A model generated the notes under the pieces. The model had not been told where the DNA came from. It ran no database searches and saw only the letters and a program-made list of their open reading frames with translations. The position numbers and the translations under genes are program-made. Positions 15,301 to 61,000 of a DNA stretch of 64,000 nucleotides are shown here, in pieces. Origin of the DNA: Liolophura sinensis (Eukaryota; Mollusca; Polyplacophora; Chitonida; Chitonidae). How positions within the stretch are numbered: the stretch's first letter is position 1; every line of letters begins with the position of its first letter. Location: assembly GCF_032854445.1 (NCBI RefSeq), contig NC_088305.1:25444628-25508627 (forward strand). Reading direction: 5' to 3'.

Positions 15301-15615
15301 TAAGGAAGGAGTGCTAACGCATGACATTGGGCTTATAAAATGTTATACAGACCAGGTCATAAGGAAGGAGTGCTTGTTCATCACAGTGGGTTTATAAAAT
15401 GTTATACAGACTTGGACATAAGGAAGGAGTGCTAACTCATGACATTGGGTTTATAAGATGTTATACAGACTTGGACAGAAGGAAGGAGTGCTTATTGAAC
15501 ACAATGGGTTTTTAAAACGTTATACAGACTTGGACAGAAGGAAGGAGTGCTTATTCATCACATTGGGTTTATAAAATGTTATACAGACTTGGCCATAAGG
15601 AAGGAGTGCTCTTTC
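12366..15615 (+). repeat. 59-bp tandem array with higher-order structure
   Basis: About 55 copies of a 59-bp unit: ACTCATGACATTGGGTTTAT, AAGATGTTATACAGACCAGG, then TCATAAGGAAGGAGTGCTA. Two main variants differ at GACCAGGTC versus GACTTGGGC or GACTTGGAC, and at ATTGGG versus AGTGGG. Marker variants repeat at exact multiples of the unit: TGCTTATTTGTCACATTGGG at 14014 and 15076 (1062 bp, 18 units), and ACTTATGACATTGGGTTGAT at 13311 and 14255 (944 bp, 16 units). The last units near 15490-15610 are the most diverged. 59 is not a multiple of three and stops occur, so it is noncoding. It begins about 30 bp after the PYM1 poly(A) signal. Confidence 0.97.
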
Positions 15616-22456: not shown

Positions 22457-25400
22457 CTGTTCACAATAATAAAAATAATAATGTATGGAACAGGAAAATA
22501 TACCATTTCACAAGAAAATTTATGCTCCAATAATAATTATCATAATCTAAATGCCTGGAAAATGTAGTTAACATGACCCATGTAACAATTTCAATTTGAC
22601 TGTGTTTGTTAGTTTTAAAGTTGTACTTCACTTTTGTCATTTTGTAAAATCAGGCCTTCATTACCATTGGTTTTTACCAGAATCTAAAGGGATTCTTGTT
22701 TAGATTCTGTTGCTCCTAGTGAAAACCTTTATGCGAATAAAAAAGTGAACAGATTTTGGGGATTCCATGTTCAAAAGTTTTAACGATGTGAAACACATTA
22801 CCTGTTGTATGTTCTATAGTAACAAAAACAATAGAATGGTGATGTTTTTTATGGGAATCCATGCAGAAATTTTGGTTTATAGTCTGGAGTCATGACAAAA
22901 AATAAAGGTTCCCTGTAAAGTTCTGTACATCATAATGGTTCGTGTACCTCCTTGTAGCAGATACAAGGGTCAACATATTACATTAATGGTGCTGCTTAAC
23001 TGAAATGCAATGCTGAGGACACAGACATGTTATAGAACACGGACACCATAAGACTACACATACGAGAACCTATACTAACCAGACCTCAGTCTATCCAAAT
23101 GCCTAGGATCAAGCAAGGAAGAACCAAGAAGTCTCAAACATGAGATCAAATAAATGTACAGCAGATATTTCATAGTGAAAGTCAAATACCATAAATACTA
23201 TATGTAAGCATGCTTTGGTGTTTTTACGTTGTACATAACAATTTTTCTGTCACATGATGAGAAGGAGTCATTGTGTGTGTGTGTGTGTGTGTATTACATA
23301 TACTGTGTCTAGATACCAGACATAACACCCCACCCAGTCACATTATGCTGACGCCAACCCAACCAGTCCTGTTTCCTTGGTCTAACCTCTTAGTGCTGAG
23401 GCGGGGTGCCAACAAGTATCATTTTTAAGGTCTCTGGCATGACCCAACCTCTCTGGTCCTCCAACCCATGCTCTAACCGCTAAGCCACTGAAGCAGTCTA
23501 ATGTAGGTGGAACTGATAACTCATTAGACGCAAAGTATCGAATGAGATATTATCACTTCCATCTCTGACAAAAACAATATTCATGGTACTTACTCTAAAT
23601 GACCTAAAATTTCGCTCACAAAAGTGCGTTTTTTAAAGCAAATAAATGTCACAAAATATTATTTTTGGTGCTCTAACATACAATTTTCCAGTAGAAATAT
23701 CCTCCCATGTTGCAAGCAAACCACAAAACACCTCTCAAAACTGAATGGAACTCTCAAAATGAGGAAAAATGGGCAAGTTAGTCATTTAGGATAACCTTCA
23801 TTGTGCAAGCTCATGATGGCTTTCATCTCTGCTGTACATGGGAAGGTATGCCAGCAACCTGTGGATGGTCGTGGGTTTCCCCGTGTTTTTTTTTTTCTTT
23901 CAGTTAGCCGTGGACAACTCACTGTTGTCTGTTGGCCATGAATTTATCCCCCACATCACGCACAAAAACGTGACTGTAAGAGTAGTTCCCCTTTGACAGC
24001 TGACCGTATATCCACAACACCGAACATTGTAATCTGTTATCTTTTAGAGGCAAACTAAAACACAGTTTATAATCTGTTGTTGGAAAAGTAGCATGATTAA
24101 AGATAACTGATTATTAAAAAGATAAGAGTACTACTTTTATTTCTCTTTTAGATTAAACTCGCTTAATCAACAGAGTATTGTATTAGATTTTTCTTGAGGT
24201 CCTCCACTAACATTTACTACTAAAAAAAAGATCAACTACATATCTACATTGCTTATGGGACATGTTGCTACACCAGATTAATATCATTGTTTTTACATGG
24301 AAACACTCGACTGAATCAAGAAAACGAACGTGTATGTCCGTACAAAATACATGTGTCTTAAAAGTGTCTTTGTACATGAATTCAGTTTGAACTGAAGACT
24401 GGTCAAAACAGAAGACAAACACTCACAAACACTTTTGTTTATATAAGCAGTATCTATCCACTGAACAAACAGCATGATTTTCTATGCCAACCATTGTTTT
24501 CTGCTCGGTTTCCTTCAACCATAATGCTGGTCACTGTCACATGCTGTACTCAAGAATACTTCACTTATAGGAAGGCGACCAGCAATTATGATGGGAGGAA
24601 AACCGGGCAGAGCCCGGGGAAACCCACGGGACCATACGCAGGTTGTCGCAAACCTTCCCCACATACAGCCGAAGAGAAAGCCAGCATAAGCTGGACTTAA
24701 ACTCACAGCGACTGCATTGGTGAGAGGCTCCTGGGTCATTGCGCTGCACTGACATACTAACCACCTCATTCCCGTTATTCCCTTCAGGTTGTCTTACCTT
24801 CAACGCAGTGTTAAAATCTTCCACCAGTTTGAGCCACTGTACAGTTTGCTTGGAGAAGTGAGCAGCGTTTGCCTGTAAGATCTTTGTCTCTGTGTCCAAC
24901 TTTTTCTGATTAACGTAGGCCTGTGCCACCCTGCACAAACAGATTGATTAATTCACTGAATTATTGGTTATTGATTTCTTTCATATTTCTCTTGTTTCTA
25001 AGGCCACATTTTACAACAACAAGTTTTGGAGTTATATAAAATAAACTTAGCCACACACACACATATATCGCAAATTCTCCCAGTAAATCTGGATGAATAA
25101 TGCAACATCCCTAGTTTAATATGAACCTGGTCTGTTAGTTCTTCTGATTGCTTTCTAAACCTTAAAACTTAATGACTAAATCTTTTCCCAAATGAGGGTG
25201 GGCTTTTTTTGTTGGCAAATATAAATGCTATAATATATTACTTTTGCTGCTGGACAATGTTTCCGCTAGGATATCATCCTATCTCTAATCAAACCTTGAA
25301 AACACCTTTCAAATATGAGCAGAACTCCTGGGAATCTAGTTATGGACAAAATTTTAGATCATTTACATATTAACATATACATGTATACCATAATTAGGTC

Positions 25401-37000: not shown

Positions 37001-40000
37001 TCTACAGTGCGGGTTTGATATTGATATGGTAATGAACTCTACTGATGAAAGAATCAGTTAATAGCAACCATCTAATATCGGGAGTAGTGTAATGACCCAG
37101 GATCCTCTAACCAATGCGGTGGCTGTAAGTTCAACTCATGCTGGCTTCCTCTCCGGCCGTATGTGGGAAGGTCTGCCAGCAACCTGCAGATGGTTGTGGG
37201 TTTCCGCTGGGTTGTGGAACGAAGTGTAATTTTGAGTGGTTGTGAATGGAGTATTGTCCTGTATACATGTACATACATGTTTTGTACGTCCTCCTATTAC
37301 ATGTAGACGTGTAAGCTGCTATTTATTTAGGAGTTACTGGGAAGATGCACGTGCAGCGTGTTTTTTAAATGTAATAAACCGGGTACATGTAGTGTTAGAT
37401 ACCTGGGTCACTTTCATAAAGCAGCATACGGCATTTTTTTTTATCCTACATTTGTCATAGGATATTTTGTACATAGCTGTTCACGTACCATTGTCTTATA
37501 TACAGGGTATCGTACAAGTACTACATCTTTGTGAAAGTGACCCAGGAGCCTCTCACCAATGCGGTCGCTGTGAGTTCAAGTCCAGTTCATGATGGCTTCC
37601 TCCGGCCGTAAGTGGGAAGGTCTGCCAGCAACCTGCAGATGGTCGTGGGTTTCCCCCGGGCTGTGCCCGGTTTCCACCCACCATAATGCTGGCCGCCGTC
37701 GTATAAGTGAAATATTCTTGAGAACGGCGTAAAACACCAATCAAATGAATAAATAAATCTTTGTGAAAGTGACCCATGGCTACTTGTGAATCAGGAAAGT
37801 ATTACTGGCCCCAGGATCATGAAGAAATCTTAGATTTAAGTCTAAATTTCAAATCACTTTAAAATTGTTATTTCTGACGTAACAAGGGCAAAATTGTGCT
37901 TGACAGCATAAATTCAGGGTAAGTTATTGTATAACAAATTTCAGCTAAAGTTACTGAAAGGAAGATACCATATTTAAGGATTGAAATATTGACTTAAGTC
38001 TAAGATCGCTTTGTGGTCCTGGGACTTGGAGTTTACAGAAGACAGTAAAGCTGTAAAACATGAGGTACATGGACATCTTAAATTAAAGAATATACCACAA
38101 TCCTACGTACATGTACATGTACCTTTGGGGGGCCTCCATGGCCAAGGGGTTAGCAACCAGTGCGGTGAAATGACCCACTAGCCTCTCACCTACATGTACA
38201 TGTATGCGGTCAAGTTCAGCTCATGCTGCCTTCCTCTCCGGCCATACTCTCCTCTCCGGGTGGGGAAGATCTGACAGCAACCTGCGGATCATCATGGGTT
38301 TCCTCCTGGGCCCTGCACAGTTTCCTCCCACCATAATACTGGCAGCTGTTGTATAAGTGAAATAATTTTGAGTATGGCGTAAAACACCAATGAAAGAAAT
38401 AAATATATGAGTTTGGCGGCATGGACTGCCCTGCCACAAGAAGACGCAATATATGTATGTACACACACTAACTGACTCCTCGTCGTTATGTGACTGGAAG
38501 TATGTTTAGGATGATGTTAAACCCCAGGTTTACATGCATACAGTTTTACATTTGTAGAGTTGTAATAAAGGTTATATCATTAGAGAGTTTACAGCAGACA
38601 TACATGTGTACAGTTGTAATAAAGATGATGTCATTGAGGAGTTTACAGCAGACATACACGTGTAGAGTTGTAATAAAGGTGATATCATTGGGGAGTTTAC
38701 AGCAGACATACACCTGTAGAGTTGGTAATAAAGGAGACATCATTAGGGAGTTTACAGCAGACGTACACTTGTAAAGCTGTAATAAAGCAGCCATCATTAG
38801 GGAGTTTACAGCAGACGTACAGTATAGAGCTGTAATAAACCAGCCATCATTAGGGAGTTTACAGCAGACGTACATGTGTATAGTTGTAATAAAGCAGGCA
38901 TCATTAGGGAATTTACAGCAGACGTACATGTGTAGAGTTGTAATAAACCAGCCATACTTGTGTAGAGTTGTAATAAACCAGCCAACATTAGGGAGTTTAC
39001 AGCAGGCGTACATGTACATGTGTAGAGTTGTAATAAATGAGGTCAGACATTCAGTGAGCCAGGGAATATCATAGCTGTGGAGTAATGGATAGCAGGAATG
39101 TAGTCAGTCTCTGTTAGTGCTCCAGTCATGCTGTTAGACAGGATGGAGATCTGTGAAACCAAGGCTGGTTGTTTTTTACAGGTGCTATTCTGAGCACTGA
39201 AATAACTGAAGATCTATTCATGTGTCCTTACACATACTTGTAAGGTCTGTGTTTCCTACCTGTTTCCTATCTTGAATACTGTGTTGATTTTACAAATGCC
39301 TTGAGTGTCGTTTTTTCCAGATCTTGAATAGGAAACTGAATAGGATGCAGTTAGAATGTGTAGGCAAGATCAGGCTAACCATAAAGCTGAACTCTTAGTA
39401 AACAAAAAATTAGAAATGTGGTGTCTGTCGGGCCTGGATGTGTGGAGAAAATAGCCTCACAAAGCTTTAACCCACTTGTAGGAAGAATCCCCTGTCATCC
39501 AACCAGTGATGATTCTGTAAAGTTAAAACTTCACGATACCAGGACAGAGCCATTTCTAGAGCAAAATTTTTTATTGGGAAAAACATCATATTTTTGTTTA
39601 ATTTACTAGTTAGTTTTAATACAGTCTGATCTTTACAGTGTAGTTTGGGTGGCTATTAAACAGTTTAGAAGACAAACTGTTTCTGGGAATGGAAATGGCT
39701 CCAGATATGGCCCTGCAGGTACTACTAGATGGTGGTAGCATTCCGTGACTAACACTCAGTCTGCATGATTCATTCCCAGTTGTGGAACTAAACTATCTCC
39801 AGAACTATCATCTGAAAACCAACGGCTAATGAATGACGAAGTTTTTGTTTTACAAGCTAACAAGTAAAAACATCTCAATTTATTTCTTCCAGTTTCGGAA
39901 TGGGACCTGTAATTTCTTTTGGGTTACAATTCCGAACTCCTCCGTAATGACAAGAGCTAGACGAGGCCAATTGTGGCCATTTGCCAGGGTAATAATAGAG

Positions 40001-43000
40001 ACAGAGTAACCCCGGGATCAATGATAGGGCTAGCCTACTACAGAGTAATGGATTCTCAGATTAGCTCTTGGGATTCTCCATGACGTCTGTGATGGATTGA
40101 CCAGGGTTGGGTCATGTAACTCTATCCCTGGGTGGTTTTATAATCTAAGATAATCTGTTATTCTTAGAACTCCAGAAATACCGCTGCATGTTAATTCTGA
40201 CAGTTTGGTTCACGTGCATGTACAATGTAGCGTAGTGGTACATGTATTTTCATACAGATTCTGATTCTGTATGCGTTTGCACAGGTTCATATTCACATAC
40301 ATGTATTGTTTTGGTTTTAATGCAGATTCAGACATTACATACTTGTTGAGCAGATTCAAATTTGCATGTACTATAGCATAGATTTAGAATTACAGTTTAA
40401 TACAAATTCAGACCTTGTACATGTATGCCGTAGCACAGAATAAAATATACAAGTACTGCAGTATAGATTTATAATTATACCATAATACAGACTCAGTAAC
40501 AAGCTAAGAAACCATTATTTACGAGGGAGTGGGGATTGGCACCCCAGTAGGCTCTCACCAATATGACCTTCGTGAGTTCAAGTCAGCCTCATGCTGGCTT
40601 CCTAACCAGCCGTAAGTGTGAAGGTCTGCAGCAACCTGCGGATGATTGTGACCCCAGTTTCCTGGTTTCTTGAGTACGGCGTAAAGCACCAATCAAATAA
40701 ATAAATGTTTATTAGGACCTGTGTTAAAATGTCCATTGTATTGTTGGTGCCATTGCGTACATCAGCAGACACATTATTATACATGTAGTGTTTCCCGTAT
40801 ATACGATGTACTCCTTGTGTGTACTGTTCAGATGTGTACATACTGTCATTCTTCAGCCTTTTCAGCCTGTTTACAACCTGATTATTCAAGCATACAGTAC
40901 ATGGAATAGCATTCTTTATAGACTGATAAAATTAGACTTCTTGTAAAACCCTGAAATTGGCCAAACCAGCCTTTTCAGATGTTTACAACCTGATTATTCA
41001 AGCATACAGTACATGGAATAGTATTCTTTATAGACTGATAAAATTAGACTTCTTGTGAAACCCTGAAATTGGCCAGACCAGCCTTTTCAGATGTTTACAA
41101 CCTGATTATTCAAGCATATAGTACATGGAATAGTATTCTTTATAGACTGATAAAATTAGACTTCTTGTGAGCCCTGAAATTGGCCAAACCAGCCTTTTCA
41201 GATGTTTACAACCTGATTATTCAAGCATATAGTACATGGAATAGTATTCTTTATAGACTGATAAATTAGACTTCTTGTGAAGCCCTGAAATTGGCCAGAC
41301 CAGCCTTTTCAGATGTTTACAACCTGATTATTCAAGCATACAGTACATGGAATAGCATTCTTTATAGACTGATAAAATTAGACTTCTTGTGAAACCCTGA
41401 AATTGGCCAAACCAGCCTTTTCAGATGTTTACAACCTGATTATTCAAGCATACAGTACATGGAATAGTATTCTTTATAGACTGATAAAATTAGACTTCTT
41501 GTGAAGCCCTGAAATTGGCCAGACCAGCCTTTTCAGATGTTTACAACCTGATTATTCAAGCATACAGTACATGGAATAGTATTCTTTATCGACTGATAAA
41601 ATTAGACTTCTTGTGAAGCCCTGAAATTGGCCAGACCAGCCTTTTCAGATGTTTACAACCTGATTATTCAAGCATATAGTACATGGAATAGTATTCTTTA
41701 TAGACTGATAAAATTAGACTTCTTGTGAAGCCCTGAAATTGGCCAGACCAGCCTTTTCAGATGTTTACAACCTGATTATTCAAGCATACAGTACATGGAA
41801 TAGCATTCTTTATAGACTGATAAAATTAGACTTTTTGTGAAACCCTGAAATTGGCCAAACCAGCCTTTTCAGATGTTTACAACCTGATTATTCAAGCATA
41901 CAGTACATGGAATAGTATTCTTTATAGACTGATAAAATTAGACTTCTTGTGAAGCCCTGAAATTGGCCCAAACAGCCTTTTCAGATGTTTACAACCTGAT
42001 TATTCAAGCATACAGTACATGGAATAGTATTCTTTATAGACTGATAAAATTAGACTTCTTGTGAAGCCCTGAAATTGGCCAAACCAGCCTGTTTACAACC
42101 TGATTATTCAAGCATACAGTACATGGAATAGTATTCTTTATAGACTGATAAAATTGTGAAGCCCTGAAATTGGCCAAACCAGCCTGTTTACAACCTGATT
42201 ATTCAAGCATACAGTACATGCATGGAATATGAAGGCATTATTCTTTATAGACTGATAAAATTAGACTTCTTGTGAAGCCCTGAAATTGGCCAGCCAGCCT
42301 TTTTCAGATGTTTACAACCTGATTATTTAAGCGTACTGTACATGGAATATGAAGGCATTATTGTTTATAGACTGATAAAATTAGACTTCTTGTGAAGCCC
42401 TAAAATTGGCCAGACCAGCCTTTTCAGATGTTTTACAACCTGATTATTTAAGCGTACTGTACATGGAATATGAAGGCATTATTCTTTATAAACTGATAAA
42501 ATTAGACTTCTTGTGAAGCCCTGAAATTGGCCAGACCAGCCTTTTCAGATGTTTACAACCTGATTATTTAAGCGTACTGTACATGGAATATGAAGGCAGT
42601 ATTCTTTATAGACTGATAAAATTAGACTTTTTGTGAAACCCTGAAATTGGCCAACCAGCCTTTTCAGATGTTTACAACCTGATTATTTAAGCGTACTGTA
42701 CATGGAATATGAAGGCATTATTCTTTATAGACTGATAAAATTAGACTTCTTGTGAAGCCCTGAAATTGGCCAGACCAGCCTTTTCAGATGTTTACAACCT
42801 GATTATTTAAGCGTACTGTACATGGAATATGAAGGCATTATTCTTTATAGACTGATAAAATTAGACTTTTTGTGAAACCCTTGAAATTGGCCAAACCAGC
42901 CTTTTCAGATGTTTACAACCTGATTATTTAAGCGTACTGTACATGGAATATGAAGGCATTATTGTTTATAGACTGATAAAATTAGACTTCTTGTGAAGCC

Positions 43001-46000
43001 TGAAATTGGCCAGACCAGCCTTTTCAGATGTTTACAACCTGATTATTTAAGCGTACTGTACATGGAATATGAAGGCATTATTGTTTATAGACTGATAAAA
43101 TTAGACTTCTTGTGAAGCCCTGAAATTGGCCAGACCAGCCTTTTCAGATGTTTACAACCTGATTATTTAAGCGTACTGTACATGGAATATGAAGGCATTA
43201 TTCTTTATAGACTGATAAAATTAGACTTTTTGTGAAACCCTGAAATTGGCCAGACCAGCCTTTTCAGATGTTTACAACCTGATTATTTAAGCGTACTGTA
43301 CATGGAATATGAAGACATTATTCTTATAGACTGATAAAATTAGACTTTTTGTGAAACCCTAAAATTGGCCAGACCAGCCTTTTCAGATGTTTACAACCTG
43401 ATTATTTAAGCGTACTGTACATGGAATATGAAGACATTATTCTTTATAAACTGATAAAATTAGACTTCTTGTGAAGCCCTAAAATTGGCCAGACCAGCCT
43501 TTTCAGATGTTTACAACCTGATTATTTAAGCGTACTGTTACATGGAATATGAAGACATTATTCTTTATAAACTGATAAAATTAGACTTCTTGTGAAGCCC
43601 TAAAATTGGCCAAACCAGCCTTTTCAGATGTTTACAACCTGATTATTTAAGCGTACTGTACATGGAATATGAAGGCAGTATTCTTTATAGACTGATAAAA
43701 TTAGACTTTTTGTGAAACCCTGAAATTGGCCAAACCAGCCTTTTCAGATGTTTACAACCTGATTATTTAAGCGTACTGTACATGGATTATGAAGGCATTA
43801 TTCTTTATAGACTGATAAAATTAGACTTCTTGTGAAGCCCTGAAATTGGCCAGACCAGCCTTTTCAGATGTTTACAACCTGATTATTTAAGCGTACTGTA
43901 CATGGAATATGAAGGCATTATTCTTTATAGACTGATAAAATTAGACTTTTTGTGAAACCCTGAAATTGGCCAAACCAGCTTTTTCAGATGTTTACAACCT
44001 GATTATTTAAGCGTACTGTACATGGAATATGAAGGCATTATTCTTTATAGACTGATAAAATTAGACTTCTTGTGAAACCCTGAAATTGGCCAAACCAGCC
44101 TTTTCAGATGTTTACAACCTGATTATTTAAGCGTACTGTACATGGAATATGAAGGCATTATTCTTTATAGACTGATAAAATTAGACTTCTTGTGAAACCC
44201 TGAAATTGGTCAAACCAGCCTTTTCAGATGTTTACAACCTGATTATTTAAGCGTACTGTACATGGAATATGAAGGCATTATTCTTTATAGACTGATAAAA
44301 TTAGACTTCTTGTGAAGCCCTGAAATTGGCCAGACCAGCCTTTTCAGATGTTTACAACCTGATTATTTAAGCGTACTGTACATGGAATATGAAGGCATTA
44401 TTCTTTATAGACTGATAAAATTAGACTTTTTGTGAAACCCTGAAATTGGCCAAACCAGCCTTTTCAGATGTTTACAACCTGATTATTTAAGCGTACTGTA
44501 CATGGAATATGAAGGCATTATTCTTTATAAACTGATAAAATTAGACTTCTTGTGAAGCCCTGAAATTGGCCAGACCAGCCTTTTCAGATGTTTACAACCT
44601 GATTATTCAAGCATACAGTACATGCACATGTAGTGTGAGGGCATTATTCTGTATACACTGATAAAATTAAACTTTTCGTGAAGCCCTGAAATTGGCCAAC
44701 CCAACTAATGTAATTTTGCCTCTGATGTCAAATTAAAAATGTGCCAAATTTTAAGTGAAAATTGCTCTTTCATACGCCAAAAGCTTAGGGATGAGGGTTC
44801 ACGTATCTGTGCTGGTAGGTTAACATGTACCCTAATACCCTAATGTGCATTTTTAGTTTGAATTTGGAGACAAAACTACATTGGTTGGATTGGCCAATAT
44901 CTGGACTTCACAAAAAGTATAATTGTATCCATCTGCACAGACTAATGCCTTCAGAATATGCTGGAATAAACACCTTGCAAACATGCGAAAAGGTTGAAGA
45001 ATTACAGTAGATTGGCATGATCATGTAGGCGTAGGTCAGGTTCCTGCAGAAAACCCGGCCTTTGTCAGGAATAAAAGTCTTCATGCATTAAGTAACAGTG
45101 CATTGTGCTAATTTGTGTTTACGTAGGGTGGGTATTACTAGAGGGTCTCGTTAGAAATTTAAAAAAACACTGTGTGGCGAGGAAGAGGAGGGGGTGGCAG
45201 GAGTGGAGAGTTTGATGGTAAAGACAGGATATTGTCATCATGGCCCAGTTGTAAAGTGTATTACTATTTAGATGTGACATTAACCGCTGACCCCCCCCCC
45301 CCCCCCCCCCCAGATTCCATTGACGAGGACCGTGTGTAGGATGGTACATCACCATTCTGAATGAATGAAGCTGAGATAAATCTATGAGCCACTATATTTC
45401 GTATGAACCATTCTGAAGTTTTAGTATTTACCCTAATGAAAGGGAATGAATAAATAAAAAAAACATTTTGTTCACCTTTAAAACTTTAGATTACAGAGGA
45501 AGTTGCCCAGTCACAGTGCAAAGATACAAACGTAACTTTGGGTAAAAACTGCTACAAAAACAGATGGTCTACAGGGATGTGAATGCACATGTATTCCTAG
45601 TTTATTAGTTATTAATTGATTATTCCAAAAATTGGATTTACTACATGTATTTCTTAACACATGTTTGACTGTAGGTGCAGATGGCTCCCAAGAAAGAGCG
45701 TTGTATTTTAGGGAAATAATGGTTATAAGATATTTCTTTTGGTTTCGAAATGTAATTTTTTTCAGTTGGATATCATCATCCAAACAAACCCCACAATGCT
45801 TTACATGTACTTGAGCTATAATCTGGAAGGAATTTTTAAAATCCGGCAACATCATTACATATAACTTAGTAAGGTCAAATACCATACATGTATGTATTTT
45901 CCGATAAAGCTAAGTTTATTGTAAGTCACCCCCTACTTTCACCATCGATGTTCTCAGTTTCATTATCAGTTGACACTCTTCCTGAAAGTATATTTTACCA

Positions 46001-49000
46001 CCCTTAACTACAAGTACTTCTCCTATCCCATGCACCAATCATCATCTTAGTTTCATTATCAGTATGCACTTTCCCTTTCCTTACAAAGTATCACACACAG
46101 CTCAGCTATAGCGCCCACACTTGTCTGACTCTACCATACATGTGTACATTGACTCTGGATGTGTTTATTCTGATTTACCCAATGTTTATGGTAGATAGGG
46201 AGGTGTTGTCTGTTGAGTAGTGTTCTGTGGTTATACATCAGTAGATAGGCCATAGCCTTATCCAGGGATACCCCACAGCTGATGAAGGGGCCAGCCCTTC
46301 CCTGGGACAGAAATATTCTAATTTATTTCACTGAGAGGCCTCACTCACAGCTTCATGTATGAAGGGTGAATGTACATGTAGCATTGTATGATGTATCCCA
46401 GATGTTACACGTACAGTCTTCAATGTTTTCACATGTTTGCGAGGTGTTTATTCAAGCAACTTATAAGGGCATTATTTTGTGTAGACTGATAAAATTATAC
46501 ATTTTGTGACGCTCTGAAACTGGCCAATCCGACCAATGTGGTTTTGTCTTTAAAACCAAAGTAAAAACATGCATAAATTGCACTGAAATTTGCTGTTTCA
46601 TACTGTGCGAAAAGTTTGAGTAATTAGAGTACATGTTACACAACCCTAACCAAGTTTTTTAGAAGGGTGTTGCCCCTGCTCCTAAAATGTGCATCCTGTC
46701 CCCTTTTTGGTCAGACACAATGTTATTTGTTTGAGAATTGTACATATGTATTCTGCCCCCCCACTCCCCCCCGTAGGTACAAATTTGAGTATTTATACCA
46801 GAAAAACACATACATGTAGTTGTTTTTTTTGCCCAAATTTTCAGTTTTTAACTGAATTGTACGTGAATACTGGGGTCTAAAATTGATGTGCATGACTCCT
46901 TGAAATGAAAATACAGTACTTACTGCTTGAGGTTTTTCATCTGTTCGGACAGCTGAGACCTTGACATCCACAAAGATCAGTGAAATAGCACATGTGAATA
47001 GGATTGCATGTACTTGTAAATTAACCGTAGAGGAATTTACTAATAATGCTACCTACAGTTTATATGTAAATATGGTTTATGTGAAAGAAGTACATATGCT
47101 TTTCATACAGTCATGGAAAAGTCTTCCAGAAACTTTCAGATATTTGTGAGTTTCCCCACCCCCCGGGGCTCTGCCCAGTTTCTTCCCCCCATAATGAGGC
47201 TGCTGTTGTACATGTATAAGTGATATATTTCTGAGTATGGCATGAAACACCATCAGACAGTTATATATAAATTTCATGCATTCAACTGATGCATGCATGC
47301 ATAAGTGCTGCTGCATCTGACAAAAATCTGCTTTTGCTTAAGTCGTGGTCATATGACTGAAAAATTGTTAAGTACGATGTTAAACCCGAAGCTCTCACTC
47401 ACTAACTCTTTTACTTAAATTCTTTTTTTAGGATGTTTGATGTAGAGTTACTAACTTTAGGTGCCAAGTGGAAGTACATGTCAGCATGTCATTTTCTGAT
47501 TGGCTGGCTGATAACATTTATAGCAGCCAATTAAGTGAAGGGCATCTATTTTCTGCGATGGGTTTGTGCTTTGTAGTGTACTTGTACATCAGTACGTGTA
47601 TATGCACTACATTTACGTGCTGGTAATTACTATTAGCTTTTTGTCAGGGGCAGTTATATATCTATGTTGTAAAAGTAGTACACAACAGTTACCTGTAATT
47701 AATGACGAATGAATTTGGGAAAATGGAAAATGTCAAGGACCGGCACAGAAAGATATTAAAAGGAGTTGCCATACCGAATTTCTAAATTACATGTAACCAT
47801 GTACTTCATTGTTTAAATGAAATGATTTTAAATACCTCTAGATTATGGGAAGTTCCACAGTTACATGTACAAGTACTCAACATGTAGCCAGTAGCCTGTT
47901 GGTATTTGGAACATCTGTGGAATGTGGTAAATGACCTGAAGTTTCACATGTGAGTTACTGTTATTCACTTTCATTTGATCCGAGTTGGCTGCAAGATGAC
48001 AGAAGAGAGTGATTAGCCCCACAACCTCCCCTCCCTCACCCCACCCCTTTGCTTCATTTCCCTGCATGTCACTCAGTAGCTGTGGTTGCTAATCCTCTCT
48101 ACATGAGATCAAGCCACTGACAGTGAGGTGTGCAGGTTTCACGACTAGTAGGCCTACATGTACATCTCTAAATATACCCATGAATGAAATCAAAGAAAGT
48201 AGTAAGACAGGTAATGTCTTTCAGAGCATTGTCTGAAAGCATTGAATGTACATGCACAATGTACACTGTAGACAAACCGATTATTTGGGTTAGGCCTATG
48301 TAGAAGTGACCTCGTTCTGTTATCTGGTGAGTGCTTGTATATGTGTAAAGGCACTGGTCGTCATGATTAAGCTCGACAGAGTTTTTTACCTTATTCCCAT
48401 TTATCACAAAATAACAAAAATAAAATAGTCAACCTGTTGCGAAGTGTATTTTCGAAAATGATTATGATCAAAACTGAGAAAATCCTGAACTGTTGGTGGT
48501 AGGAGCATAGACTCAACTGCTCAGTGAAGCGTGAGCTTGTTTATTTCATTCTTGAACTCTCAGTATAATCCCCTGACCACACCTGATGCTGCTCTCCCCC
48601 AGCACTCAGTAAACAACCACAACCAGTGCAATGAATCCTGGGATACGCTTTCCAGAGTCCCAGGGCAAAACTTTAGGTCATTTACCATACTCAAAGAATA
48701 TTCCAAGTGAAGTTGTTGCCAGTGGTCACCATGACAATGTAGAGTTATGGTTAAATATGTACCACAAAAAATGTCATACAAGGGATGGTCTGACAGCAAT
48801 CTGCTGATGGTTGTGGTTGTCTCCCTGGCACTACTCGATTTCCTCCTGCCAAAGTGCTGGGCACTGTTGTAAAAGTGAAATGTTCTCGAGTACAGTGGTA
48901 AAACACATAATAAATAACATTGACCAAAGCCTTCTAAGATTCCAGCATTCCTCCTCAAACTTCACACATCTGCTGGGGTCGGGTGGAGGGAGGGAATTTT

Positions 49001-52000
49001 GATGTGAGGTGAAGCCATATAGTCCTGCCCTTCCCCAGCTTCGTCATCACACCCTATGGTTGTTTTCCTTCCTGGGTTAAGGTACTTGTCTCCCAGGAAT
49101 TTTAATACCCTTGGTGATCAGGTTGCCTTGGTCAGGGAATGGGCAGTAAGAGATCTTCAGCTTAAGGAACAGATGTTGTCAACTATATGTACAGCTGAGT
49201 GTAGGAAAGCAAATGTAGTGGACAGGAGCTCTCTAGAATAGAGGGAAGAAAGGTTGATTTTTTTATTTTATTACTAAATCAAATGTAACTGTGAACTTCA
49301 GACTCTCTTGGCCATTGGCTGAAATCCACTGAATGGTGGAGAATTGGAACATACTCTCAAGCTTTTCCTTGCTTTCCAGCTTTCGGTATAAGTGAAATAT
49401 TCTTGAGTACAGCTTGAAACACCAATTAGATAAATATATAAATAAATCAAGGTTGAGGAATTTCAGACTGTACATCTGTTATGGTTAGATGCTCTTTGTT
49501 TGTTTCTTTTGGTTAAGTAAACAACTTCATTTAGGCAATGCTGCCATATGGGTGGTTTTGTGGGGTGCAATAACAGCATTACATATACATCAATTCCAGA
49601 TTTGTCAGGAGTGTCTACATGTACATATACATCAGTTCCAGATTTGTCATGAGTTTCTACATGTACATCAGTTCCAGATTTGTCATGAGTCTCTATATAT
49701 ACTTCAATTCCAGATTTGTCACGAGTTTCTACATGTACATCAATTCCAGATTTGTCATGAGTGTCTACATGTACATGTACATCATTTCCAGATTTGTCAT
49801 GAGTTTCTACATGTTCATGTACATCAATTCCAGATTTGTCATGAGTGTCTACATGTACATGTACATCAGTTCCAGATTTGTCATGAGTTTCTACATGTAC
49901 ATCAGTTCCAGATTTGTCATGAGTTTCTACATATACATCAATTCCAGATTTGTCACGAGTTTCTACATGTGCATGTACATCATTTCCAGATTTGTCATGA
50001 GTGTCTACATGTGCATGTTTGAGTTCATGTTACTAGAAAAGCATTTAGAACTTAATGACAAAAGGTATTAGTCTCTGTAGATTCCATTTTAATGGAGACA
50101 GTGAGACCCTATACAGAGCACTAACCACACACAGTGTTAGACTTAAAGTTTGCACAGCACCAAGAAAGGCATTTGAGAGATATCAGACAGTGTACATGTA
50201 GATACATGCATATCCTTTTTATCTCCATTCTTGGAGGCCTGCCTTGATACATTTGTTGAGGAACAGATGGGTTTAATTGACCTGCACTTGACCCGATCTA
50301 AGTGCTTGTTTTGGTTGATGCCAACATGGCCTGATACCAGATACTGTCCTACAAGTTACACTTTATCTGCCTGTACAGCTTTAACCAATTAGCCGGTAAT
50401 TGTGTAATTAATTCAGGGGCAATTGATCTTGAGTGTCAAGAAGGTCTAGTGTCATGTCAGGTTGACATTTGACCCTTGACCTTTCTTCAAGGTCACACAG
50501 AGCTATCTTCTGCAAGTTGTAGCTTAGTTCTTTGTCCAAGTACAGTTTTTCTTCCTGGTAAACATGCATAACACAAGGTGTAGAATAGTTTGCATCATTT
50601 TTTGGGCAGATCTTTACATTAACTCTCTGTGACATTTAGAGGTTGGGAATGACATAGCAGGGAAGAGATTGTTATGAAAGTACAACTTCTATTTATTCAT
50701 AAATGATGTTTCAGTGCAGAAACTAACATTGTCATTGACTTTATAACGATGCCAATTTCTCCATCAAAAAGTCGTGGAGTGTCTGCTTTGTGGACAGTAG
50801 ATCCAGGGTCATTCCTGGGTTGGGTCACACCTAAGACCTTAAAAGAGGACGTTGTAGCTTCCTCACTTGGCCTTCAGCATTAAGGGGATAGTGCAGTATA
50901 ATGGCTCGGATGGGGCTACTCGGATGAAAGAGCGGTGGAAATTCGTAATGCAACAAGGAAGTGCATTACACGTACATGTACATGCTCTCTGAGAACTCCT
51001 TTGTCGTCATATGGCTGAAAAAGTGTTAAGCACAGTGTTAAACCCGAAGCACTCACTCACTCAAAAAGTCGTCTTTGAATACATAAAAGTTGTACATGCA
51101 TTAGAATCTCTTCCATGTTATAATATGCACATGTGTATCATTATATGAAGCTCAAATCATTGTTTCAAGTTATGAAAAGCACCTGTTTTTACCTGGTTTA
51201 CAATGTCTGATATCAAGAAATGGGGGGCCTGTCAGCAACATTCAGATGGTCGGGGGTTCCCCCCCCCCCCCCCCAGCTCTGCCCGGTTTCCTGCCACCGT
51301 AACGCTGGTGGTTAAGTGAATTATTCTTGAGTATACCGTAGAACACCAACCAAATAAAGAAATAAAGAATAAGCAATAGGGCAAATGTGCAGTAAATGGC
51401 CCTCTTACGTTTTCCCATTAGCCAGGATATCATCCTACCTTCCAAACAGACCTTGGAGCAACTTTCTGAGATCCATAGAAATTTCAGAATCGGGCAGACC
51501 GTGCAAATTATTCTTGGGGGAAATTTAATCATTTGCTGACTATAGGAAGCACTTCGCACACATTGGCACTGACGGTAGAACACCTACATGTACATGCATA
51601 TACTCACTTCAGTGCACTGTAAAAGAAAACATAAAATTTAACTACAGTAATTGAAAATTTGGAGGACGTGTAATTGCCCTTGGATAGATGCACGTGTACA
51701 TGTACACATAAAGTGTATTTGGCACTGATGATACGTGGAGTAAGGATGTATATATACAGTCAATGGCAGGATATTTTCTTTGACTTTGACATAAGTCATC
51801 AGGAGCATCAGGTGGGAAGAAATGAGTACAATTCAAATTAATTGTAAACAGGGCATATGCACATCTGCCTGATAATGAGGTATGGAATTTATCAATCAAA
51901 ACTGCGGACTCTTATTTTTATTTATTTATTTATTTTCTTTTGTTTATTTTGTTTATTTGTTAGATTGGTGTTTTATGCCAAACATTTGTACTCAATAATA

Positions 52001-55000
52001 TTTCACTTATATGATGAAAGCCAACATTATGGTAGAAGGAAACCCATGGCCATCCATAGGTTGCTGACAGACCGTCCCACGTACAACCAGAAAGGAATCC
52101 AGCCTGCATCAGCTGGACTTGAACTCACAGCGACCACATTGGTGCGAGGCTTCTGAGTTTCTGTGCTGCGCTGCCACGCTAACCCCTTGGCCACAGAGGC
52201 CCCAGACTCTTTGAAGTACAGTGGTAATATGTATGGCATTGTATGTTCCTGTCATTAGGGCTGTAAAACAACAGATGACACCAACCTGTACAAAACATTT
52301 ACATCCTGTACAACGTGTATATTCCAGATCTGAGATTGCAGCGTAAGTCTGGAAACCATCTTGGCAAAGTATTTATTTTCGTAACATGGTCACATTTTTT
52401 TATTTTGCGTATCAAATTCTTCAGTAGTATGCAGACGTAGATTCGTAGATTATTGGCTCTTACATTTCACACGTGCAAAAAAAAAAAAAAGCCTTTGCGT
52501 AATGGACTCCAGTTGTGAACCATTTGTGGAATCCTTATGGAGCATCAGGTTTCTCTGAATGAATCCATTCTGCCAAGTGTTTGGTTATTGCCCTTTGATA
52601 GCTCTCCTGTGTGTACTTCTGGCTTTCCTGCCTGGTTCAAGTTCCTTTGGTATTGATATAACCTGGATTGAGTGTAATCCAAACTTCTCCCAGCGTAAGG
52701 TTCTGTAAGCACATGGTTTGATTGTTTCCATTGTTTTTATGGGGTGTGATGACAGTGGGCTGTGCATTGCTGAAAGAGATGTAAAACTACAGTATGTGTA
52801 TAAGCATGTACACCTTGATGCAGTTTTACATTTTTAATAAAATATATGTATGTTCTGATCTATTCCATACGGTCTAATATAAAGTTAAATGAGAAGAAAG
52901 TCACCTGTAGAGAAATGGACAACCAGCATTGATCTGATGCACCTTCCATTGTTTCAGATGTATGCAATGTTGGACATAAAATAAGAAAAGGAGAGTGAAA
53001 AATAAGACCAAAGCAATATTAATTAAAATTTTGCTGATTCCACATTTAATGAACAGACAAATTGGGCTTTTTACATTTATCTGATTAAATCTACATGTAC
53101 AATTGCCTACAAATTTTGGCTGAATCTACTGTTCATTTAACGAAGACAGAGGGGAAGATTGTGGCTCTCTGTGCCAAGGTAAAGTGTATTATTACCATTT
53201 ACATGTACAGGTATATAAACAAAAAAAAAATAAAGTGGCATGAAAAAACTGATTGGGGCATGAGATCATATAGCAGTGCTGTCACATACTTTGTCATGTG
53301 ATGTGATATGAGCTGCCTGTCTGTCTGTCTATCCAACCCATCAACCTCAACCCCCAGGTTTGTTGAGGGTGCAGACAGCTGTTGGTGATCTGAGCCGAGA
53401 CCAGATATTCCATTGTTAATGTTTTCCTAACTGAAATGTTCCGCCCCATCCTTCTGTACTGTTCTGGAGAGAGAGGAGACAGCTGTTGTACAAGTAGACT
53501 AAACAAACATGAAGGTCATACATGTAAATCTTCTGGTTTCTAAAGGGTTTGTCACAAAATCTGGCAATGTTTCATTGGAGTGGCATGTCCTAAATGTAAA
53601 AGAAACTTTTGAAAGCTTTGTACATGTACAAAGAAAAAAAATATATATATCGATGTACTGGTTCAAATTTCTTCTTTCAAAATGGAATTTCATTACCGTA
53701 ATTCCTCAATCTTTTCGCATATGATAGAGGAACTTTCAGCGCAATTTATGCGCATTTGGAGGCATTTGGGCTTCACAAGAAATGTCATTTTATCAGTCTA
53801 CACAGATTAATGCCTGGAGAACATGCTTGAACAAACACCTTACAAATGTGAAAAAGTTGAAGAATTAGGGTTAGAACAAATTGTTGTCGTTATCACTTGA
53901 TGTACTGATTTATAATGGCAGTGTTCCTTGAACTGAAGTTGAAACCATAAACCAAAAAACATTCACTTCATTCGTGTCCTTCAGTCAACACTGGGAACAT
54001 GGGTAAAGACCTCATTTTGTGGGTCTGGTGTTATCCTTGGTCAGCAGCCGTTAAACGTACATGTTACGGGGACCACAAATCTGTCAGTTAGAATTTCTGG
54101 AACTATACATGTTGCTGTTATACTTGTATATGGGTAGTAAGTTTTAAATTTCGTCAAAAATAGTTTTGCAGACAAAAATGCCATGGCTACATGTAGCCTT
54201 CTATGTGGCTGCTGAATGTACTAGATGTTCGGTCTGTATATACATTTATGTGGCGAAAATTTATAATCTGTGCCTTAGAAAATTGTTTTGTAATGAAAAA
54301 TAAAAATTGTAATTTAATTGTGTTACAAATTTCTAAAAAGTACTAGAGGTACCTGTCCTCCAAAGAAACCTGGAAAATGCATTTTCTGTTCAAAGTGTGT
54401 GTATATCTGGACAAGAAACGCTTACATGTATATTGTGTACACGTGTATTGGTGTACTTAAATTCGGAGAATTATAGTAGAATTATGGTAGACATAGGAGA
54501 GGTTAAAGGCCAGGGGCTAAAGGTCATAAGGGTCCGTACAGATGGAAAGGTTCATCTTGCACTGAAGACAAAACATCACTTTGTCAGCCTTTCAAACTTT
54601 CTCTTTGAAATGAAAAATCACCCAGTAATCTGTTGGAAGATGTAATTTTAGGAGTTATAAAACAACTAAAGCTTTTATATTTCTGATATTGGAGTTGGGT
54701 GTAGTCATTTTATCTTTGTAAAGAATAGTTTTGACTAAAGTGATTGGAACACATGTACATTTGTATTGGTGCTTATGTTTTATCATTTGAAAGTTTATCT
54801 AAAAGCATACAAATTGTCAAAAGGCATGTCAGAAAAAAAGGACTTTCAGGGATTGTTTAGGACTGGTTTTGTGATATGAATTGCCTGACTACACATGCAT
54901 ATACATTGATCACAGGTTTCTTCTTCATTTTTCTGACACTTAAAGTTTCCTTTAGACCATGCCAATTTAATTTTTTTTTTCTTTACAAATGCATAAAAAA

Positions 55001-58000
55001 AATTTTCCATGTCAAATGAGGAAAAAATAGAAGTGAAACTTCCAGCTCATGCTGACTTTCTCCCCGACCTTAAGTGGAAAGGTCAGTCAGCAACCTGCAG
55101 ATGGTCATGGGTTTCCCCCAGGCTCTGCTCGGTTTCCTCCCACCATGATGTTTGTAGAATGTATAATTACTTACAGACACCGTTTAAAACTGTAAAAAGG
55201 TTTTGTGGGCACGAAATTGCAAACGGACGTGAACGAAATAATAAATAGAATATTGCATAGTAGAGGTTGAATACCATAAATATTGTTCTCATGAGAGGTA
55301 AAAATGATAAAAACTCGACGCTGCGTGTCTTGTGGGTTATTTCCACCTCTCACTCAAAAAATATTTATGGTATTCAACCTTCACTGTGCAATATCCTCTT
55401 TGGATTTTCGCGTTTTCAGTGTTCATGTAACTTTGGTAACAATGCATCAAGTTAGTGACGAAGTTGCCAAATGTTGATGTTTTACCTCGTTTACTCCACT
55501 TACAAAACTGACACCTTGTACATCTGTTTGCCTGTAAAAATGCACTAATTTGGCCAAATATGATTTCATTGACTGTAGCGTAATAATTGATGCTTAGATG
55601 ATGTACAAGACAAAAATCCTACATACTGTAATTCTTCAACCTTTTCGCATGGTTGCAAGGTGTTCATTCAAGCATATTCTGAAGGCATTGTTCAGTGTAG
55701 ACTGATAAAATTATATTTTTTTTTGAGGCTGTGAAATTGGCCAATCCAACGAATGTACATGTACTTTTGTCTGCAAAATCTAATTGTAAATGTGCACAAA
55801 TTGCACTGAAAGTTGCTCTTTGGCGATAAGGTCCAGGAATTAGGAAGCATGTATTCATATTGGCCAGAATTTTGTCATTATTGGCTTTCCCAGCTGTAGT
55901 ACTACATTGTGTAAATGCTCAGTCACGTTGGACCACAAGGCCTCGATAATAAGTTGACCATGGCACCTCTCATTACAACCCCATAGATTATTATTTCTCC
56001 TGCACTCTGTACACACGATACAGGAGAAACGCATACAGTTTATATGCTATTGGGATGATAGCTGCTGAGCTATGTGTGGAATTTTAATAATTTGTCAATT
56101 AAGTTAATTGTTTGGATGCTATCAGATGCGAAGAGTAGGACACTAATCAAATGAATGTTGTATTTTACTACCGGTAGGTCATGTACACGCACCCCATATA
56201 ATGGTTGCGAAATAATATAAAACATTATGGCCATATTTCACTGTAAATGAATTTCATCAAAGTCTTGTAAGGGTTTGTTAGGATTATGTGTCAAATTCAA
56301 ATTATTATAATTTATAGATTTATTTGATTGGTGTTTTACGCCATACTCAAGAATATTTCAATTATATGACGATGGCCAGCATTATGGTGAGAGGAAACCG
56401 GGCAGAGCCTGGGTAAAACCCACGGCCATCCGCAGGTTGCTGACAGACCCTCCCATGCAAATGATTACAATAGTAACAGTCATAATAATATTTGAGTGTC
56501 TGATTCAACGTCTAACGTTGGTGCAAGTAGGATGTGTGATAAGAAATCGAGGAAGAAAATGTAAATGAGGCGTGATGACTTAAGGTTTTGACTAAATTTA
56601 CATGCATATGTAAATGTAGATGTATGCTGGAGAACATGCACACTGGGTATGATAACATGTGTCTACATTGAAATATTCTACGTGTGGCATACTGAACAAT
56701 CAAAGGCCTACATGTACATGTAAGAGTCTGTCATGAGCTTCATTGATCATGAGGGCAGAAATGGTTAGCATGACAACACAGTGCAATGACACAGGAGCCT
56801 CTCACGCATGCTGCCGTTGTGAGTTCAAGTCCAGCTCATGATGGCTTCCTCTCCTGCTGTATGTGGAAAGGCCTGCCAGCAACCTGTGGATCATTGATTT
56901 TTCCCCTGGGCTCTGCTCAGTTTCCTCTCACCATAATCCTCTCACCATAATGCTGGCCATAAATAAATATTGATATTGTTTGTCCAATTTTCTGTTTCAG
57001 ATTTTTGGTCGGCGCTCCCAAAGCAGATGTGGATGCCCAGAGATATACCCAACAGAAAGACCTGGTGGTCACTACTGTGACTGGGTTTGGCAGCCTTTAT
57101 AAGTGCAGGTTATCCACCAACCCAGACGACTGCGAAAGGTTAAAACTTGGGGAGGAAAGTAAGTATAGTAGTAGCAACTGACATTTGTACAGATCCGGAG
57201 TTCAATCCTGAGACGAGTCATAGGTATCGATCGGTAAATTGGTACCACTTCATTTCGCGCTCAGAAATAGGACAGACACCAGCTGTGTGCTTTCTGTACA
57301 TGTACCCTAATTCTTCTAAATTTTAGGACAGATATCAGTAGAAGTGAAAGTCAAGAATTACATTTCTCTCCCAGTTTTTTTTGGAAAGTGAAGATGTGAA
57401 TATGTAGTTTATTAGGTAGACTAACCCTGTGAAAGAAAAAGACAGGGTATATTCCTCCTACAATTACATATATGTGTACACTGGCTAAAAATAGTGGACC
57501 AGGTGTCCCAAAAATTAGATGGATTCGAGTATATTGTATTGTATCTTCACCTGTTTCTGATTTTTTATGTTGCTCTTTGTCTGATTTTTATGTTGCCTTT
57601 TGCCTAATTTCCCTGTCCCACTTAGTCTAATTTCCCTGTCACACTTTGTCTCAATTCCCTGTTACACTTTGTCTGATTTCCATGTTTTACTTTGTCTGAG
57701 TTCCCTGATTCACTTTGCCTAATTTCTCTGTCCCACTTTGTCTAATTTCCCTGTCACACTCTGTCTGTTTTCCATGTTTCACTTTGTCTGGTTTCCATGT
57801 TTCACTTTGTCTGGTTTCCATGTTTCACTTTGTCTGATTTCCCTGTCACATTTTGTCTGATTTCCATGTTTCACTTTGTCTAATTTCCCTGTCACACTTT
57901 GTCTGTTTTCCATGTTTTACTTTGTCTGATATCCATGTTTCACTTTGTCTGATTTCCATGTTTCACTTTGTCTGATATCCATGTTTCACTTTGTCTGATT

Positions 58001-61000
58001 TCCATGTTTCACTTTGTCTAATTTCCATGTCACACTTTGTCTGATTTCCATGTTTCACTTTGTCTGATATCCATGTTTCACTTTGTCTGTTTTCCATGTT
58101 TCACTTTGTCTGATATCCATGTTTCACTTTGTCTGATTTCCCTGTCACATTTTGTCTGATTTCCATGTTTCACTCGTCTTCCAGTCTATCAAGACACGGA
58201 TCGTGTGAAGGAGAATGTCACGGATCAGTGGTTAGGTGTAGTCGTCAACAGTGAAGGACCAGAGAACAAAATTATTGTGAGTGTCTGTGGTTCTGATTTA
58301 TCTTCACTGTAATAAGACAAAATGTAGACCTCGTCAGGCTAATCTCTTGAATAACCAACCTATTTTTATGGGAATCCAAGCTGTTTACAGTAAAGCTCTG
58401 TAATTGGGGTAATTTGTCAAGAGAATAGTGCAGTTTAGTTGTTGGGCCCTCCTGTTTTTTCGTTCATAAACCTGACAAGGATTTATGTACCATTATACAA
58501 CATAGTAAGTACAGTGTTAAAACAACAATTTAAATATATGTCAATGAATTACTGGTATTCTAATTCTGTGGTGTGCATTTGAAGATGTTGCAGCACCCTA
58601 AGGATGGTCGTGGGATTCCTCCGGACTTTCTCTGTTATTGTTCCACCATAATGCTGGCTGTCCTATAAGTGAAAGTATAGGAAAGTTCTTAAATATTGCA
58701 TAAACACCAGTCGGGAAAAAATAATTGAATGAATACTTGGAGTACAGATGATACAGAATCCTGAGTAAGACCTAAAACCAGGTAAACAGGTGTTTATTTT
58801 CCTTTCTACTCCTTCCTCTCCGGCCATACGTGGGAAGGTCTTGCAGCAACCTGCGGATGGTTGTGGGTTATGAAATATTCTTGAGTACAACGTAAAACAC
58901 CAATCAAATAAATAAATTGAATCCTTTCTACTCCTTTACAGACATGTGCCCATCGGTACAAAAAACACCGTACTGCTTCTCAGCGCACAAACTGGGGTTT
59001 CGGTAAATGTCACACCTTCACAAACCGCCTTGATTATGACATGGAATGGGACGCCTGCTCTCAGCTCTCCGTTGTGGCAGGACACGAGGATTATGGGTAT
59101 TGTCAAGCTGGCACCAGCGGAATCATCGCTAATGTAAGTCCTGTATGCAGATGTTTTTTTGTTTTTTTTTTTAAAAGAAAACACAACACTAGACCAAATG
59201 TGAGGATGTACATGTATGTATAGAGAACCTCCTACATACACCTAATGACTTGTCGTCATCGGGTAACTGAAAAATGGTATGTTTACACTTTGTTTCCGGT
59301 TTGAGTAATAATAGTGTATCGCATGAACTCATAAGAATTTCAGAGTAAAAGATGATTTATGAGTTTCCTTGTTACAAAGATGCTTATTACGTCAAAAAGA
59401 AGAAAAATGGCTGTGGCCATAAGGTCAATTTTGACCTGTATGTCTTTTACTGACTAAGTGGAGCCTCCGTGGCTGAGGCGGTTAGAAAGCCAGAGTGGCC
59501 CAATGACTCAGGAGCCACTCACTGTGAGTTCAAGTCCAGCTCATGCAGGCTTTCTCTCTGGCTGTAAGTAGGAAGGTTTTTCAGTAACCTGCGGATGGTC
59601 GCAGGGTTCCCCCAGGGCTCTGCCCGGTTTCCTTCCATAATAATTCTGGCCGTAGTCATATTAGTGAAATATTCTTGAGTGAGGCATAAACCACCAATCA
59701 AATCAAAAATCAAATAAATGACTAACCAAGGCTATATTTTTTCTGTTTTTTTCTTTTAAGTAATGAAAGTGGCAGGGATTGTGACACTGACATGGTTTGT
59801 TCTAAAGATCAGTTTTGTAGGTTTTTAATAACCTCAGGATTACTATGCTGTAGTTATTGCGCAGCAGCAAAGAATAGTTGTTTATTTTGTCTATGATATT
59901 TTTGAATCGTCAAAGAAAGGTCTGAATGTTTTTTCAAGACTAACACATTCTAAGGCCAGGGAGAGTTACCCTTGTCAGTGTCTAAAACTCTTGTGCGCTA
60001 ACTAGCAGCTCAGCATAATTTTCTGATACAGTAGTTATCTCCCTTCCACGTCCATCTTTTGTATCTCTTGATGTTTTTCAGGATGGTAATGTTGTTATTG
60101 GCGCACCTGGAGCAAAGACATGGACAGGTATGAGAGCAGTGGTGCTTGATTTAACTTTGCTAGTCAGATTTTTCCTAAAAAAAATGATGGTGTGATATTT
60201 ATCTGCATACATGATTTTTGTTGTTTGTACAAGGCTATCATACAGATGCTGCACATGGTGATGATACAGTCTTTTATTTGTTATTTGCCCTTGCTGGATC
60301 AGTTGGGTGTGGCATGCTTTACTGTGTTAAACCTTTGCGGGATTAGTTGGGTGTGGCATGTTTTACTGTGTTAAGCCCTTGCTGGATCAGTTGGGTCTGG
60401 CATATTTTACTGTGCTAAGCCCTTGCTGGATCAGTTGGGTATGCCATAATTTACTGTTTTAGCCCTTTGCTGGATCAGTTGGGTGTGCCATATTTTACTG
60501 CGAGTTGCTCTGTCAGTCGGTCAGATTTTTGAACGCATGATAATGGTTTAATGTAACTTTGACAATATTGCAGTCATATTGTGACAAGAACAACAGCAAT
60601 CAATAAATAAATAAATAACCAGAATAGCTAGAATAACTGTAGGCATAGTTACAGGGTAAGATTTGAGCATTAACTTTTAACCTTAAATATTGCAGGGATG
60701 TTATTTAAGAAGTACGACACAGAAGAATTAATCTCAGGGTTGGGTTGGAAGAGAACACCCGTGGAGAAAGGAGAAAACCCACCTGTGCCTTTCTTTTCTT
60801 ACTTAGGTAAGCAGTGCGGCTGTGACGATGGTTGTAAACTCTTGAATGACAAAATTAAAGTAAAGCCAGATTGTTGAGTACACTCAGAAGCTTCTCTCCT
60901 ATGTCGTCACTGTGAGCTCAAGTGCAGCTCATGCTGCCTTCCCCTCCAGTTGTGCCAGAACTGCCAGTAATCTGTGGCTCTTCATGGGTTTAACCCAGCC

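Follow-up and report, generated by a model that had tools for sequence, protein, structure and literature searches.

A 33-unit tandem array inside a single miniature inverted-repeat element of the chiton Liolophura sinensis

How does a short mobile element come to carry 4 kb of tandem repeats between its own two ends? The question is raised by a locus in the chiton Liolophura sinensis, at which one copy of a miniature inverted-repeat transposable element (MITE) consists of 33 head-to-tail units of its left half, followed by an ordinary right half. The locus lies in the 64,000-nucleotide stretch analyzed here (referred to as the window; C11:25444628-25508627), and the genome searched comprised 609,464,459 bases in 632 contigs. 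This genome was first published as that of Liolophura japonica (PMC11068029), the species being corrected to L. sinensis (PMC12441733). We propose, with a probability of roughly 0.85, that the left half of the inserted MITE was duplicated between two CAACC words, and that unequal exchange and block duplication afterwards enlarged the array at the same site.

The expanded element (MITE copy 1) occupies 40841-44799 on the plus strand, as judged from the family alignment and consensus; family profile matches start at 40841 and end at 44797, and the last two bases were placed by eye. A first-pass annotation had put the element at 40848-44805; the element is real, and its bounds are corrected here. 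Its left end (40841-40869, defined by sequence, family alignment and profile) is a TA plus a terminal inverted repeat (TACTGTCATTCTTCAGCCTTTTCAGCCTG), reading TACTGTCATTCTTCAGCCTTTTC compared with TACTGTAATTCTTCAACCTTTTC in the family. We set the unit boundaries by cutting the array at the anchor TTTACAACCTGATTATT, the first cut being at 40870. By unit alignment, units u01-u12 form a 112-bp-class block (40870-42186), u13 is a switch unit (42187-42310), and u14-u32 form a 120-bp-class block (42311-44590). Units u01-u10 are 111-112 bp long, u11 and u12 are shortened units (104 and 95 bp) at the right end of the 112-bp block, u13 is 124 bp, and u14-u32 are 119-121 bp. The last unit, u33 (44591-44703; unit and family alignments and tree), has no anchor after it and its length was set by hand; it runs directly into the right half (44704-44799; family alignment and profile), which ends in a degraded terminal inverted repeat reading GAGGGTT where the family has TTAGGGTA. 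All of these parts are on the plus strand, and Tandem Repeats Finder (TRF) reported the array at 40854-44703.

The family to which this element belongs has a consensus of 221 bp, including the TA at each side, obtained by aligning copies from other chromosomes with those of the window (36 near-full rows, of which L024 and L043 are one place counted twice). The terminal inverted repeats (TACTGTAATTCTTCAACCTTTTCGCAT and TACCCTAATTCCTCAACCTTTTCGCAT) are equal at 24 of 27 letters, TA included. TA target sites were present on the left in 24 of the near-full rows, on the right in 27 and on both sides in 18, and the mean identity of the rows to the consensus was 90.1%. A 33-base core, searched with up to three mismatches, occurred at 1,970 places genome-wide (997 + 973, array units counted in), whereas the reversed pattern, used as a control, occurred at none, which excludes chance resemblance as the source of the family. 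The features that define a MITE were therefore all found, i.e., short length with many copies, terminal inverted repeats and a target-site duplication. At 221 bp the element is presumably too short for a transposase gene, and the family would owe its origin to a transposase; the TA seen in the rows is compatible with Tc1/mariner.

The array unit corresponds to about positions 14-127 of this consensus, i.e., the left half including part of the terminal repeat. When aligned to that segment, u17 (120-bp class) was identical at 85.1% of ungapped columns, with 11 inserted bases, and u06 (112-bp class) at 82.5%. Past u33 the sequence continues as the MITE right half, with a family profile match at 44577-44797 (expect value, E, 6e-43), as the first-pass annotation had described. 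Joining the left end to u33-44799 gave a sequence 84.9% identical over the aligned part, first bases excluded. Thus, the unit shares homology with a segment of the MITE and the MITE ends bound the array, as expected of a MITE-derived tandem array, and the earlier proposal that the left half of one MITE expanded within that element agrees with these alignments. That proposal would have failed if MITE copies elsewhere had been unrelated to the unit, or if the right flank had not aligned with the MITE right half; the family alignment and the 1,970 core places show that the copies are related, and the right flank does align.

Where the units join is informative. In the consensus, CAACC occurs at positions 14 and 123, 109 bp apart, the first within the left terminal inverted repeat and the second in the middle of the element. 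The left end of ordinary copies has TTCTTCAACCTTTTC and their middle GGCCAATCCAACCAATG, while the array junction is GGCCAAACCAGCCTTTTC or a near variant. Because the unit junction falls on the CAACC word, the first duplication probably used this 5-bp microhomology. For consensus segments of 60-179 bp, about 8,520 distinct junctions are possible, and 17 of them (0.2%) have microhomology of at least 5 bp; counted by breakpoint pair, the figure is 104 of 11,700 (0.9%). Direct repeats at such a distance are ordinary; it is the landing of the junction on one of them that is unlikely by chance.

A pattern for the junction matched 106 places genome-wide at up to three mismatches, of which 100 were listed. 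Among the matches listed, all 24 places with zero or one mismatch were inside this array, as were six of the nine with two mismatches. By eye, two of the three outside places with two mismatches were ordinary MITE interior, as was the majority of those listed with three mismatches; the remaining outside place with two mismatches (C4 at 5123213) reads CCAACTTTTTT. With the junction at up to one mismatch absent elsewhere, the expansion looks local to one locus. A word from the unit head gave 31 places at up to three mismatches, 29 of them here and two elsewhere (with two and three mismatches). One of these outside matches (L079) is a single, internally deleted MITE sharing CAGATGTTTACAAC with the array, which may therefore have started within a minor MITE subfamily.

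We also looked for tandem arrays inside the MITE by TRF at 49 fetched loci, which were the best matches to the queries and lean towards intact copies, and found none, although one array (L040) touches 30 bp of a MITE end. The latter (L040:1292-1476; 60-bp period, 3.1 copies, overlapping the final 30 bp of that element) is perhaps a small MITE-end duplication. At L030:1501-2075, two near-full MITEs in the same orientation are 127 bp apart, a possible dimer. As regards satellite DNA, the units are alike and head to tail (33 units, with small differences within blocks), but a satellite would be expected in abundance at many loci or in long heterochromatic arrays, and here there is one 4-kb locus. 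A single 33-unit locus is not yet satellite DNA. The first-pass annotation had seen here the step from mobile element to satellite; the origin of the array from a MITE stands, and the step to a satellite was overstated, because there is one locus, the junction at up to two mismatches was found at only three places outside it, and the process has been described in other animals.

How, then, did the array grow? We built a unit tree, rooted on the MITE consensus and including MITE copy 2 (see below), with ultrafast bootstrap (UFBoot) support, which is usually trusted above 95. In this tree u33 splits off first (remainder, UFBoot 86), followed by u13, the two blocks grouping together (UFBoot 77); the 112-bp block is a clade (UFBoot 86) and the 120-bp block a separate clade (UFBoot 97). 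The two length classes, already assigned to separate blocks from the sequence, are thus separate clades as well. The 112 class is without TGAAGGCA (8 bp), a derived deletion, and keeps the older head letters C/A/A, as in u33; the 120 class has three derived head letters (T/G/T) and keeps TGAAGGCA, as in the MITE. Unit u13 has the derived states of neither class and so looks ancestral, although it has several private changes and an additional CATG, and u33 has an array-like head with a tail closer to the MITE form (older letters). Mean differences between units were 3.8 and 3.9 within the blocks and 8.7 between them. The apparent switch near 42230 had been taken to record a single direction of growth; the tree does not support this, because u33 and then u13 branch off at its base, leaving the two blocks as sisters.

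Within the 112-bp block, units four apart were most alike (family-wise p 0.03 over six lags); within the 120-bp block, units nine apart were most alike, although this was not significant (family-wise p 0.08 over ten lags). Such recurrence of similarity is more in keeping with duplication of blocks inside the array than with extension from one end. Units u01, u12 and u13 each start with the rare form CAGCCTGTTTAC, which fits growth of the 112-bp block between the left edge and the center. Taken with the tree, it seems that u13 is an old unit flanked by two blocks that each expanded. This unit may instead be a recombinant, with a 112-class head and a 120-class tail, which would look ancestral by construction. 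A recombinant would look alike except for the extra CATG, which resembles CATGCA in u33 and favors an old unit, although it is one character.

The history that we propose is as follows. A MITE from a family of about two thousand recognizable copies would have inserted at TA. An error between the two CAACC words 109 bp apart, whether slippage during replication, a template switch or end joining by microhomology, would then have duplicated the left half once. Unequal exchange and duplication of local blocks would have enlarged the tandem pair where it stood, and the 112-bp and 120-bp blocks would have formed on each side of the old unit u13. The array edges (the left terminal repeat and the right u33 tail) would remain unlike the interior. 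Whereas the data show the anatomy, the descent of the units from the MITE left half, the junction position, the unit tree and, among the matches listed, the confinement of the junction at up to one mismatch to this array, we infer the kind of replication or repair error, the unequal exchange and a transposase-driven origin for the family.

Several points weigh against this history. Unequal exchange is deduced from one assembled haplotype. The array element itself has CAGCC as its left word and CAACT as its exit word, so that the CAACC microhomology belongs to the family consensus and not to the present letters; 5-bp direct repeats at distances of 90-130 are, moreover, not enriched in the consensus (five pairs versus a shuffled mean of 6.6). 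Support in the tree is moderate, only the 120 clade (97) exceeding the usual 95. Owing to its private changes, u13 has on average 10.4 and 11.4 differences from the two blocks, more than the 8.7 that separate these from each other. The block periodicity is weak, the p values of 0.03 and 0.08 being uncorrected for two blocks. The lean of the 49 fetched loci towards intact copies counts here too. Finally, when the genome was probed with the consensus junction, none of the best 40 of 1,688 candidates spanned it, but the probe listed MITE copy 2 and yet missed the array itself, so that it is a weak negative; the junction pattern is the better test of uniqueness.

A different cause is suggested by the neighborhood. 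MITE copy 2 (44828-45009, minus strand) is inverted relative to copy 1, is flanked by TA at each end and has lost internal sequence near its distal end; its profile match runs from 45009 to 44843 (E 2e-52), and the distal stretch, 15 bases to 44828, was read by eye. Copies 1 and 2 lie tail to tail, 28 bp apart, and the 426-nt stretch 44584-45009 folds at -82.9 kcal/mol, compared with a shuffle mean of -40.3 (z = -11.4, 100 shuffles); folding of a single array unit was unremarkable (z = -0.4, 200 shuffles). The same stretch considered as one long-inverted-repeat element was rejected, the family alignment showing two elements of one 221-bp family. The neighbor might have triggered the expansion, a hairpin stalling the replication fork and template switching duplicating the adjacent half; the Hikosaka-Kawahara model for Xstir, as described in the review PMC12628747, likewise has two nearby elements forming a stem-loop, from which tandem repeats result. 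However, there is one case only, the second insertion may have come before or after the array, the array units group with u33 in the tree and not with copy 2, and one microhomology duplication requires no hairpin. We regard such a trigger as unlikely. Marginally more doubtful is its extended form, in which the stalled fork at the tail-to-tail pair would lead, by template switching at CAACC, to repeated duplication of the adjacent half-element; if the neighbor were the cause, MITE pairs, and not single MITEs, would seed tandem arrays.

Less probable again is rolling-circle copying of a circle formed from the MITE half and reinserted at the locus. It would yield many similar units at once, and the review PMC12628747 describes models of this kind for Helitron-derived arrays. 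The two diverged clades and two basal units instead fit stepwise growth, and, among the matches listed, the junction was not found elsewhere at up to one mismatch. That the MITE captured a pre-existing tandem repeat, as proposed for miDNA4 of Xenopus, a Tc1/mariner MITE (PMC12628747), is very improbable: throughout the genome, ordinary copies have a left half homologous to the unit, and no free unit array was found in the best 40 of 1,316 candidates of a unit search or, among the matches listed, by the junction or unit-head patterns. Equally improbable is an assembly artefact, since, although tandem arrays may be mis-sized, the PacBio HiFi reads average 8,347 bp at 14x (PMC11068029), longer than the 4-kb array, the units differ from one another, and the downstream flank (45012-45700) is present once in the assembly. 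An alternative haplotype was rejected because this flank matches only itself.

A profile search of the window (E up to 1e-3) found five MITE loci, all within 40841-55844, and none in the remaining 49 kb. In addition to copies 1 and 2, these are single, unexpanded MITEs at 46417-46630 (plus strand, E 3e-55), 53694-53867 (minus strand, with an internal deletion, E 4e-36) and 55624-55844 (plus strand, E 4e-56). The latter three had been recognized in the first-pass annotation as single-copy relatives, correctly, while the inverted copy 2 had been overlooked. Five copies in 15 kb form a local cluster when set beside the 1,970 places at which the strict core matched in 609 Mb, although diverged copies escape that core.

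Other tandem repeats are also present in the window; all arrays together make up about 11.5 kb of the 64 kb (sum of TRF rows). An array of about 55 copies of a 59-bp unit, with a strong skew of G over C, occupies 12369-15610; in a genome search with 177 of its bases, only this locus matched (25 matches, one candidate place). At 1-1508, in a GC-richer stretch, are about 63 copies of a 24-bp unit, which may extend beyond the window start; the last third of this array is open on both strands (188 and 190 amino acids). Additional arrays lie at 19515-20069, 38547-38955, 49580-50018 and 57567-58174, with periods of 28, 54, 36-42 and 23 bp. As regards coding function of the MITE array, no stop-to-stop frame of at least 100 amino acids occurs between 40932 and 45510. 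When 10 of the 39 open reading frames in the window were compared with Pfam, GCN5L1 alone was above its cut-off, in an open frame at 24561-24944 on the minus strand (E 1e-14), and Rfam gave no match in the whole window at gathering thresholds.

Growth of arrays from MITEs is already known from frogs, flies and clams. MITE-derived repeats have been reviewed for Xenopus, rye, ants, lepidopterans and bivalves (PMC6947457, PMC12628747, PMC9659126), and a foldback element seeds tandem arrays in Drosophila (PMC4079207). As the reviews describe Xstir/Xmix of Xenopus (Hikosaka and Kawahara 2004, via PMC12628747 and PMC9659126), these too are MITE-derived repeats with composites of MITE plus array; Xstir, however, is described in the forms of MITE, array and composite, whereas a single composite locus was found in the chiton, and host and MITE family differ. 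According to the same two reviews, miDNA4 of Xenopus tropicalis (Scalvenzi and Pollet 2014) is a MITE that contains either one monomer or an array, and its expansion has been attributed to direct repeats of at least 5 bp. It has been placed in Tc1/mariner, a group compatible with the TA target site of the chiton MITE. Its monomer, flanked by AT-rich repeats, is proposed to have been captured, whereas the chiton unit derives from the left half of the MITE itself, with CAACC as the repeat word.

In Tetris, a foldback element of Drosophila virilis, internal repeats associated with the terminal inverted repeats likewise seed kilobase arrays, as described in PMC4079207; there the TIR-220 repeats have been amplified into satellite-like arrays in beta-heterochromatin, whereas in the chiton a single locus was found. 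Among molluscs, the tandem-repeat-containing MITEs of Donax trunculus (from a title-level description) and the Pearl elements of oysters and clams with HindIII and BIV160 (from table entries) are also non-autonomous elements linked with tandem repeats. Among the papers listed for Polyplacophora and satellite DNA, no title concerned satellites of chitons. From the reviews, we understand that MITE-to-array transitions have mostly been deduced by comparing the single, composite and free forms that occur side by side as populations. The chiton locus is a well-preserved example: at one place, the two ends of the MITE survive, the final unit has an older tail, a unit in the middle is basal, and the 5-bp junction can be identified. 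As a clean worked example of a first duplication followed by internal growth, it can be tested at the same locus in related individuals and species.

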